NCBI GenBank assembly: GCA_035530055.1
Contig: DATKVN010000008.1
Span: 1 to 50,645, forward strand
Length of the DNA: 50,645 nt
Source of the DNA: a bacterium
GTDB lineage: Bacteria > UBA6262 > WVXT01
Reading direction: 5' to 3'
Positions 181 to 47,380 of this stretch are shown here, one piece after another. Numbering within the stretch: position 1 is the first letter of the stretch; each line of letters starts with the position of its first letter. The notes beneath the pieces were generated by a model. The model was not told the origin of the DNA. It saw only the letters and a program-made list of their open reading frames with translations, and did not search any database. The translations under genes and the position numbers were made by a program.

Positions 181-233
181 GTAGTGTAGGGGCTTGTCCC
201 CGTAAAAATTACGCCCATAAAGGGCTACACTAC
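181..233. repeat. 53-bp cloverleaf-forming palindromic repeat (type A, copy 1)
   Basis: The 53 bases divide without remainder into an outer stem GTAGTGTA / TACACTAC (8 bp) and three abutting arms: GGGG-cttgt-CCCC, GTAA-aaa-TTAC and GCCC-ataaa-GGGC. There are no unpaired junction bases, so RNA or single-stranded DNA could form a four-way cloverleaf. A second copy of the same length is at 43848-43900 and a composite partial copy at 38277-38337. It lies between pilM and pilN. Confidence 0.85.
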
Positions 234-28935: not shown

Positions 28936-28990
28936 TGGAGTAGCAGAGCTTGCTCTGCGTTATCATCGCGAAACAAGTTTCGCTACTCCA
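28936..28990. repeat. 55-bp cloverleaf-forming repeat (type B, copy 1)
   Basis: The 55 bases split exactly into an outer stem TGGAGTAGC / GCTACTCCA (9 bp) and three abutting arms: AGAGC-tt-GCTCT, GCG-ttatcat-CGC and GAAAC-aa-GTTTC. The layout is the same as in the 53-bp type A repeat, but the sequence is unrelated. Other copies are at 29064-29113 and 47324-47380, with a permuted copy at 7655-7710. Confidence 0.85.
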
Positions 28991-28998
28991 AAAACCCT

Positions 28999-29031: not shown

Positions 29032-29113
29032 TGTAGCAGCAAAGCGTAAGCTTTGCCTTCCTTTAGCAGAGCTTGCTCTGCGTTATCATCGCGAAACAAG
29101 TTTCGCTACTCCA
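29032..29113. repeat. Hybrid palindromic repeat (type B, copy 2, with foreign left arm)
   Basis: From 29064 to 29113 the sequence is identical to the type B copy at 28941-28990. Its left outer-stem half is replaced by TGTAGC (29032-29037) and the hairpin GCAAAGC-gtaa-GCTTTGC (29038-29055), a module also found at 32547 and 36636. The copy therefore looks like a recombinant of two repeat types. It ends 16 bases before the TPR gene start at 29130. Confidence 0.75.
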
Positions 29114-29129
29114 AAACTAAAGGGGAAAG

Positions 29130-38276: not shown

Positions 38277-38337
38277 GTAGGGGCGACCTTTATGGTCGCC
38301 CAGGGGTTTATCCCCGTAAAAATTACGCCCATAAAGC
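38277..38337. repeat. Composite partial copy of the type A repeat
   Basis: GTAG (38277-38280) is followed by hairpin GGGCGACC (38281-38288) / GGTCGCCC (38294-38301). GGGG-tttat-CCCC (38303-38315) comes next, and then a segment identical to type A copy 1 (GTAAaaaTTAC and GCCCATAAAG). The right arm and outer stem TACACTAC are missing. An extra hairpin arm thus replaces the left part and the right end is lost. Confidence 0.7.
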
Positions 38338-41914: not shown

Positions 41915-42892
41915 GTGGGTATTTGTATAGTGGGAACTGGGTCATATCTGCCAGAGAAAGTCTTAACCAATAAGGATCTTGAGAAAATAGTCGATACATC
42001 CGACGAGTGGATTGTAAGTCGTACGGGAATCAGAGAGAGAAGGATATGTTCCGATAAACAGGCTGCTTCTGATCTGGGGATTAAAGCTGCCCAGAGAGCA
42101 ATGGAGGATGCTAATGTAAAAGTTGAAGATATCGATTTACTTATTGTGGCAACGATTACTCCGGATATGTTCTTCCCTTCAACAGCTTGTATAATACAGA
42201 CTAAGTTAGGGATAAAAGGTGCTGCTATTTTTGATTTGAATGCTGCCTGCGCTGGCTTTATTTACTCTCTTTCTACTGCCCAGCAATTTTTACAGATGGG
42301 AACATATAAAACAGCGTTGGTCATTGCCACGGAAACTCTTTCTAAAATTACTGACTGGGAGGACAGGAATACTTGTGTGCTTCTGGGGGATGGCGCGGGA
42401 GCAGCAGTTTTGAAAAAGGAGAAAGGTGATTCAGGGATTCTCTCTTGTTATTTAGACGCAGATGGTCAGTATGGCGATTTGTTGAATATGCCCGCTGGGG
42501 GCTCGCGACTCCCGGCAACTATAGACACAGTCAAGAACAGGCTCCATTACCTGAAGATGAAGGGAAATGAGACTTTCAGAATAGGCGTACCGGAAATGGT
42601 GAACTCTGTCAAACGAGGATTGAAAGGATGTGGACTTAAGATAGAGGACGTGGCTCTTTTGATACCACATCAGGCAAATATCAGGATAATTAAAGCAATC
42701 GTAAAGAGATTATCTATATCCATGGATAAGGTTTTCGTAAATATTGATAAATGCGCAAATACTTCAGCAGCTACTGTGCCTATTGCTCTGGACCAAGCAA
42801 ATCGCCAAGGCAGAATTAAACGAGGAGATATTATAGAATTGGTTGCCTTTGGTGCTGGGTTCACCTGGGGTTCCTGTGTGATTAAATGGTAA
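41915..42892 (+). CDS. fabH: 3-oxoacyl-ACP synthase III FabH
   Basis: GTG 41915 is preferred (GGAG about 10 bases upstream), giving 'VGICIVGTGSYLPEKVLTN' as the start; a longer frame begins inside plsX. The 325-residue enzyme has the catalytic triad Cys112 ('AACAGF'), His252 ('PHQANIR') and Asn282 ('CANTSAAT'). It starts each fatty acid by condensing an acyl-CoA primer with malonyl-ACP. The stop overlaps the fabD start by 7 bases. Confidence 0.95.
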   Translation: MGICIVGTGSYLPEKVLTNKDLEKIVDTSDEWIVSRTGIRERRICSDKQAASDLGIKAAQRAMEDANVKVEDIDLLIVATITPDMFFPSTACIIQTKLGIKGAAIFDLNAACAGFIYSLSTAQQFLQMGTYKTALVIATETLSKITDWEDRNTCVLLGDGAGAAVLKKEKGDSGILSCYLDADGQYGDLLNMPAGGSRLPATIDTVKNRLHYLKMKGNETFRIGVPEMVNSVKRGLKGCGLKIEDVALLIPHQANIRIIKAIVKRLSISMDKVFVNIDKCANTSAATVPIALDQANRQGRIKRGDIIELVAFGAGFTWGSCVIKW

Positions 42893-43851
42893 AAGTTGCT
42901 TTCCTCTTTCCAGGTCAGGGCTCACAATACGTAGGTATGGGGAGAGAACTATACGAAAGGTACGAGCCGGCCCGGAAGATTATTGACCGGGCAAATGATA
43001 TTTTAGGTTACGACCTAAGAAAAAAGATTTTTTATGGCCCTGAGGAGGAGTTACAACAAACTTTAATTACTCAGCCCGCCGTCTTTACTATAAGTGTTGC
43101 TTGTTTGGAAGTTCTCCAGAGACCTGAAAGTTACTCTTCTAAAGAAATCTTAAGACCCCAGATTGTAGCCGGCCATAGTTTGGGAGAATATACTGCTTTA
43201 GTTGCTGCAGGGGTTTTCGGTTTTCCCCAAGCCTTATTAGTAGTTCAAAAAAGAGCTGAGTTTATTCATAAGGCTTCCCAGGAGAAGCCCGGAGCAATGG
43301 CAGCCATTATAGGATTGGAAAGAGAGAAATTAGAAGAAGTTATTGAGGAAGTTAGAGGAGAAGAAGTACTGGAAGCTGTAAATTTCAATTCTCCTCATCA
43401 AATAGTTATTGCTGGAGAATTGAAAGCGATTGAGAGAGCTGTGGAAGGAGCCAAAGCAAAAGGCGCAAAGAGGGCTATTATTCTAAAAGTTAGCGGAGCT
43501 TTCCACTCCCAGTTGATGGCTCAAGCGGGGAAGAATCTGGCCAGAGAATTGGAGAATTATGAGTTGAAAGATCCCGTTATTCCTGTGGTGACAAACTGTA
43601 ATGCGAAACCGGCAACTTCACGGGAAGAAATCAGAAAAGCATTGGTTTCACAAATAGATAATCCTGTATTATGGGAAGATAGTATAAAAGAGATGTTCCA
43701 AAGAGGTGTGGAGATTTTTATTGAGGTAGGTCCAGGGAAGGTGTTAACTGGACTTTTAAGTAGAATAACCAAAGGGTCTTCTGGATTAAACGTGGAAGAC
43801 GAGAAAAGTCTTCAGGAAACCCTTAAGAAACTAGAAACATTGAATATGTAG
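42886..43851 (+). CDS. fabD: Malonyl-CoA:ACP transacylase FabD
   Basis: The 321-residue protein has 'FPGQGSQYVGMGREL', the nucleophile Ser98 in 'GHSLGEY' and His207 in 'SGAFHSQLM'. It loads malonyl groups onto ACP. The start overlaps fabH. The TAG stop at 43849-43851 is part of the left outer stem (GTAGTGTA) of the cloverleaf repeat that begins at 43848, so the last residues and stop may have been set by insertion of the repeat. The protein still has normal length. Confidence 0.95.
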   Translation: MVKVAFLFPGQGSQYVGMGRELYERYEPARKIIDRANDILGYDLRKKIFYGPEEELQQTLITQPAVFTISVACLEVLQRPESYSSKEILRPQIVAGHSLGEYTALVAAGVFGFPQALLVVQKRAEFIHKASQEKPGAMAAIIGLEREKLEEVIEEVRGEEVLEAVNFNSPHQIVIAGELKAIERAVEGAKAKGAKRAIILKVSGAFHSQLMAQAGKNLARELENYELKDPVIPVVTNCNAKPATSREEIRKALVSQIDNPVLWEDSIKEMFQRGVEIFIEVGPGKVLTGLLSRITKGSSGLNVEDEKSLQETLKKLETLNM

Positions 43852-43900
43852 TGTAGGGGTTTATCCCTGTGAGAATTACGCCCATAAAGGGCTACACTAC
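43848..43900. repeat. 53-bp cloverleaf-forming palindromic repeat (type A, copy 2)
   Basis: The copy has the same length and division as 181-233: outer GTAGTGTA / TACACTAC and arms GGGG-tttat-CCCT, GTGA-gaa-TTAC and GCCC-ataaa-GGGC. Compared with copy 1, C to T in arm 1 and A to G in arm 2 turn Watson-Crick pairs into G.U wobbles, so the + strand RNA would keep both stems. It contains the fabD stop codon. Confidence 0.85.
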
Positions 43901-43916: not shown

Positions 43917-43970
43917 TGGAGTCCTCCCGAAAGGGAGGAAAAAATCCTCCGATTTCATCGGAGGACTCCA
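43917..43970. repeat. Palindromic repeat with GAAA-capped arm (type D)
   Basis: Outer TGGAGTCCTCC (43917-43927) / GGAGGACTCCA (43960-43970) are inverted repeats. Inside, CCTCCC-GAAA-GGGAGG (43923-43938) and TCCTCCGAT-ttc-ATCGGAGGA (43945-43965) can form as alternatives or together with a shorter outer stem TGGAGT/ACTCCA. It stands between the type A repeat and fabG. Confidence 0.75.
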
Positions 43971-47323: not shown

Positions 47324-47380
47324 TGGAGTAGCAGAGCTTGCTATGCGTCAACTAATCGCGAAACAAGTTTCGCTACTCCA
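47324..47380. repeat. 57-bp cloverleaf-forming repeat (type B, copy 3)
   Basis: The outer TGGAGTAGC / GCTACTCCA is identical to the copy at 28936. The arms are AGAGC-tt-GCTAT (one mismatch), GCG-tcaactaat-CGC and GAAAC-aa-GTTTC. The middle arm keeps its GCG/CGC stem while its loop differs in length and sequence. It ends 17 bases before the acyl-CoA dehydrogenase ATG. Confidence 0.82.

Follow-up and report, generated by a model that had tools for sequence, protein, structure and literature searches.

Does a 53-bp repeat that folds into a complete cloverleaf point to a transcribed RNA or to a piece of mobile DNA? The window, by which we mean the whole 50,645-nucleotide stretch analysed here, carries such a repeat at positions 181-233 and again at 43848-43900. 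An earlier note had divided both copies into 8+13+11+13+8, leaving no junction base unpaired, and had described changes in copy 2 from G-C to G.U in arm 1 and from A-T to G.U in the middle arm; both the partition and the changes were verified. The copies, their units and the related repeats in the window are:

181-233, plus strand: REP doublet copy 1, a B unit, a 3-nt spacer and an inverted A unit
181-205, plus strand: B-type REP unit, GTAGTGTA-GGGG(CTTGT)CCCC-GTAA, exact unit match
209-233, minus strand: A-type REP unit, GTAGTGTA-GCCC(TTTAT)GGGC-GTAA, exact unit match
28937-28989, plus strand: doublet of a third REP family with GGAGTAGC heads, the family flanking the RAYT of contig C35 (L007)
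approximately 38303-38336, plus strand: third copy, truncated and mosaic, with the B-unit hairpin, the middle arm and part of the A unit
43848-43900, plus strand: REP doublet copy 2, in the gap that separates a fabD-like from a fabG-like gene
43876-43900, minus strand: A-type REP unit of copy 2, exact unit match
43918-43969, plus strand: doublet of another REP family with GGAGTCC heads, the family flanking the RAYT of contig C43 (L006)

The repeat unit is 25 bp long and consists of the 8-nt head GTAGTGTA, a 13-nt hairpin and the tail GTAA, and the 53-mer is built as 25+3+25 from two inverted units with their heads outward and a 3-nt spacer between them. Because the units are inverted, head pairs with head in the outer 8-bp stem and tail with tail in the middle arm, the side arms being the hairpins of the units themselves; the exact 8+13+11+13+8 partition therefore follows from the inversion of a unit that is also found alone. 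The truncated third copy, which the earlier note overlooked, adjoins the end of a GTCGCCC repeat. Copy 2 has five differences from its nearest master sequence and lies directly 5′ of the GGAGTCC doublet; the fabD-like ORF (42886-43851) ends in a TAG stop (43849-43851) that belongs to the GTAG head of this copy. Further GGAGTAGC copies were found at 29060-29112 and near 47331. We also noted that the first two of these GGAGTAGC doublets, when taken as 28941-28993 and 29064-29116, are identical 53-bp copies lying 123 bp apart.

The genome to which the window belongs (G000) is an assembly of 1,678,755 bases in 106 contigs and is 96% complete. BLAST with a 62-base query returned approximately 40 long matches to the 53-mer as well as partial copies, and a pattern search in which head and tail were fixed and the stem was left free (GTAGTGTAG-N11-13-GTAA) identified 92 exact units, against none for the reversed-pattern control. 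GTAG stands directly 5′ of a short palindrome, with a fully Watson-Crick 4-bp stem in 86 of the 92 units and a single G.T in 2 more. The copies are almost all intergenic, only three of the 58 clusters that they form being inside called ORFs. Another exact unit was found within 100 bp of 63 units, the remaining 29 being alone; the resulting pairs comprised a main class of 32 outward-facing pairs (20 of them with a spacer of 2-4 bp), 6 same-strand pairs and 1 inward pair. Approximately 33 doublets are full-length, several of them identical at unrelated loci, while single exact units are also common and units occur in mosaics and tandem arrays together with other REP families. No match to the element was found in viral contigs or plasmid collections. 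We consider it very probable that these are GTAG-tagged REP doublets of the BIME/REPIN type, which are non-autonomous mobile DNA elements. What we observed in this respect is the unit anatomy, the copy number, the doublet arrangement, covariation of the stems, site differences between congeners, and RAYTs that have REP families of their own.

For copy 1, RNA as well as DNA parameters gave the cloverleaf as the structure of minimum free energy on either strand (RNA, -21.5 and -22.9 kcal/mol; DNA, -11.5 kcal/mol on both strands), a single long hairpin being far worse; for the GGGC/GCCC version, a rearranged long hairpin is favoured by DNA parameters. Four fully paired stem versions were found: GCCC/GGGC (type A), GGGC/GCCC and GGGG/CCCC (both type B), and GGCC/GGCC, which occurs once in G000 and recurs in other genomes. 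The stems covary as whole sets inside the unit, as is expected equally for folded DNA and for folded RNA. In G000, each of the 32 outward pairs whose units are no more than 100 bp apart (a few clustered units being counted in two pairs) joins one A unit to one B unit, with no A-A or B-B outward pair seen among them. An A+A pair would form a near-perfect 53-bp palindrome, and a mixed pair makes a poorer long hairpin; the clover therefore clearly wins for copy 1. A preference for heterodimers without an obvious explanation has been reported for GTAG REPs (PMC3733652). Perfect palindromes may be lost in cells or during assembly, which could account in part for the rule seen here, and the 32/32 consistency of this rule supports either avoidance of a perfect long palindrome or the clover being the active form.

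The geometry, for which the earlier note knew no described family, has precedents. GTAG REPs that form outward hetero- and homodimers with short spacers, and whose heads supply stop codons, were described in PMC3733652; REP doublets were recognised as mobile units in PMC3116915, where a clover fold is proposed for them (Fig. S11); and TnpA_REP recognises single-stranded GTAG plus hairpin (PMC8266576). Like the head-to-head heterodimers of PMC3733652, the units described here are multicopy, intergenic, short perfect hairpins ended by GTAG, facing outward with differing stems that may contain G.T, and there too some units are 1-5 bp apart and heads often provide a TAG stop; the present family differs in its shared 8-nt head GTAGTGTA, in a GTAA tail that also pairs, in that all outward pairs found are heterodimers, and in a strong co-direction with genes in G000. 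With REPINs (PMC3116915) it shares the inverted doublet as the unit, the hairpin or clover, the occurrence of singlets and clusters, and RAYTs in the genome, whereas here the stems are mutually mismatched, the long hairpin of copy 1 is much weaker than its clover, and no RAYT is linked to the GTAGTGTA family. The two inverted REP types, the mosaic and tandem arrangements and the GTAG 5′ of the hairpin recall E. coli BIMEs and TnpA_REP (PMC8266576), but the short stems here are perfect, without the bulge that is conserved in E. coli REPs, and come closer to group 3 REPs, which are perfect palindromes. By analogy, the hairpin and its candidate guide tetranucleotide also resemble IS200/IS605 ends, which are recognised by Y1 enzymes in single-stranded DNA, although no transposase lies between the units here.

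Eight Y1_Tnp genes were identified in G000, four of which scored above the curated cut-off of NCBIfam NF047646 (REP-associated tyrosine transposase, RAYT); the other four comprised two that matched NF047646 below the cut-off and two IS200/IS605 transposases. The four RAYTs lie on contigs C43, C35, C69 and C14, each is flanked by its own family of GTAG/GGAG hairpin REPs, and two of these families, those of L007 and L006, are the GGAGTAGC and GGAGTCC families of the window. In the L007 family the GGAGTAGC heads are combined with two different stems in inverted orientation; judged from the arrangement of the L007 and L006 families, an outward, differently stemmed doublet is thus the form that RAYT-linked repeats take in G000. 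No RAYT linked to the GTAGTGTA family was found in its own genome, in five relatives or in five other genomes, the family was absent from the immediate flanks of the Y1 genes examined in G000, G003, G061 and G062, and G001 contains copies of the element without any Y1 gene. One candidate in G062 (L135) was rejected as a linked RAYT, as the A unit lies approximately 1.3 kb from the Y1 gene with another gene between them. RAYT linkage can be lost (PMC3733652); with no linked RAYT found and a linkage that can be lost, we therefore filed the family as a REP doublet or BIME that is REPIN-like, and not as a proven RAYT-linked REPIN. Further Y1 genes at L003 (1177-1926), L005 (1197-1984) and L074 (1149-1982) have plain inverted repeats, not REPs, in their flanks; scores were obtained for two of them, both under the RAYT cut-off, and as a group they are like the TIR-associated tyrosine transposases of PMC3733652.

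Comparison with congeners revealed turnover at individual sites. G001 and G003 belong to the same genus and are 93-94% identical over fabD-fabG. In the gap between these genes, where G000 carries the doublet, G001 has a related mosaic, G003 lacks the doublet and G002 shows a different array of repeats. At the L012 site, the doublet of G000 corresponds to a single A unit in G002 and is missing from both G001 and G003. Copy 1 is found at the same site in G001 (L048). This turnover fits mobile or rapidly lost elements. The fabD-fabG and L012 comparisons recovered no clean empty site that would bear on the exact ends and on target duplication. Some copies have further sequence around them. On G000 contigs C14, C9, C64, C100 and C78 (L032, L033, L053, L038 and L023, respectively) the doublet lies within a larger inverted repeat of approximately 100 bp, GGGATAGTTATCGGAGTCGCTCG ... 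AGAAAACCTGGCGGA ... CTATCCCTTCATC, and the array in the fabD-fabG gap of G002 is related to this larger repeat and lacks the doublet. At L036 (1440-1553; G000 C20:7206-7258) the doublet directly follows the 3′ end of an apparent tRNA gene, and a decayed copy occupies this position in G003 (L127). In several copies (L016, L025, L059, L103 and L111), also in G003 and G062, a similar CCACAA(A/C)TTTTGGA stands just past the CTAC end; this 3′ flank may belong to the element as an extra part, or it may be a target that is preferred.

Among the genome contigs scanned, 44 stretches contained the 25-bp A unit, the MAGs concerned being labelled Clostridia bacterium (the window's genus, as judged from coordinates that agree with G001 and G003), Thermodesulfovibrionales, Endomicrobiales and Omnitrophota. 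The Thermodesulfovibrionales MAG (G060) has more than 30 copies, and its ribosomal protein L2 is only 56% identical to that of G000; an Omnitrophota contig has only the element in common with G000, at up to 100% identity. Genomes with one copy may reflect mis-binning of single contigs. Several other genomes join the units with longer, variable spacers, so the compact 53-bp clover belongs mainly to the window's genus and the units themselves are shared. That exact units occur in MAGs separated by deep divergence contrasts with the view, stated in PMC8049555, that REPINs show no evidence of significant horizontal transfer, at least at the species level. We also observed that in G060 (L087, L093, L101, L102, L109 and L113) the A unit lies inside a longer repeat of approximately 120 bp, often at contig ends, in which it is followed by a conserved ACTACACTTTTTGGAGAAGAACC.

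The earlier note had instead suggested selection on a transcribed structure, and an RNA cloverleaf acting in the gene-sense direction, as an untranslated-region or attenuator element, would indeed accord with the clover being the best RNA fold; overall, we regard this as unlikely. Constraint on pairing, one part of that suggestion, held up: 26 distinct copies showed 96.3% standard pairs (with double changes in one pair), and relative to the nearest master there were 30 substitutions at paired and 24 at unpaired positions where 75% were expected to be paired, a deficit in pairs (p=0.001) to which the variable 3-nt spacer partly contributes. The strand-specific part did not. Among 38 doublets from the window's genus and one other genome, read on the plus strand, the non-Watson-Crick cells were 12 G.T, 11 A.C and 8 others; the hairpin arms lean towards the RNA reading (8 G.T to 3 A.C), but the middle arm (3:3) and the outer stem (1:5) do not, and the wobble bias that two copies had suggested disappeared, along with one-strand G.U compensation. 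The two copies first noted were a small sample of the family. The converse prediction of a REP model, that G.T would be kept on the GTAG strand of each arm, was also unsupported, the right arm having 5 G.T and 2 A.C on the plus strand, although these numbers are small. Also against an RNA are the common single units and mosaics that lack the clover, the lack of conservation of the compact clover in other genomes, the absence of any Rfam family matching the window, and a place relative to genes that is not fixed (median distances of 47 bp to the upstream gene and 60 bp to the downstream one). Orientation favours it: the earlier note would have taken copies without a preferred orientation relative to transcription as counter-evidence, and the B-to-A direction in G000 instead ran with the genes in 38 clusters and against them in 9 (47 clusters between co-directional genes, genes called by a simple longest-ORF rule; p=2.5e-5 with clusters taken as independent), both for doublets (20:5) and for single units (18:4). 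In the same stretches the corresponding counts for other REP families were 9:7 for GTCGC, 6:4 for GGAGTAGC and 13:2 for GGAGTCC, and the A unit in the distant genome G060 had no such bias (11:8). A significant orientation bias is not among the features by which REPs are usually defined, and it counts against the REP reading. GC skew showed, however, that the genes of G000 are almost all on the G-rich strand, which is probably the leading strand, in nearly every stretch; with genes and G-rich strand coinciding, replication-fork bias and selection on a transcript are therefore inseparable here. A replication-linked insertion bias explains the orientation equally well, and a fork-linked bias is known for IS200/IS605 elements (PMC6006769). 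Of all the observations, the orientation bias alone still leaves room for a role at the transcript level. It is doubtful, to a similar degree, that the family is at once without a linked RAYT, spread between phyla, restricted to mixed-stem doublets that favour the clover, and gene-directed because the folded RNA functions in the host.

Two further explanations dispense with both RAYTs and RNA. A MITE that owes its movement to a DDE transposase of the conventional type, and whose terminal inverted repeat is GTAGTGTAG, would likewise be short, multicopy and intergenic with inverted ends, but the half-elements, head-to-tail tandems and mosaics with other GTAG hairpin families that are common here are unlike a MITE, the inner hairpins covary as units, and G000 contains four RAYTs with repeats of matching architecture, all of which make this very improbable. 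Intergenic palindromes can act as terminators or protein sites, and selection could have produced such a binding site or terminator-type palindrome repeatedly, with no mobility involved, a reading compatible with the orientation bias; near-identity over 53 bp at unrelated loci, presence that differs between congeners, and the general absence of a T-run after the copies inspected leave it with hardly any credibility.

The GTAGTGTA repeat is, then, a new family of a well-known kind and not a new RNA, and by analogy with TnpA_REP its spread may be pictured as follows. In single-stranded DNA the units would fold into the clover, a RAYT (an HUH/Y1 enzyme) would bind GTAG and the hairpin and cut beside the hairpin, and the doublet would be pasted at another intergenic site. 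We infer that the GTAGTGTA family is mobilised by a RAYT in this way; the enzyme may be one that is now lost or unbinned, or a present RAYT acting in trans. Identification as a REP explains the cloverleaf with no need for a new class of RNA, and a lineage about which little is known thereby gains a well-documented GTAG REP family.
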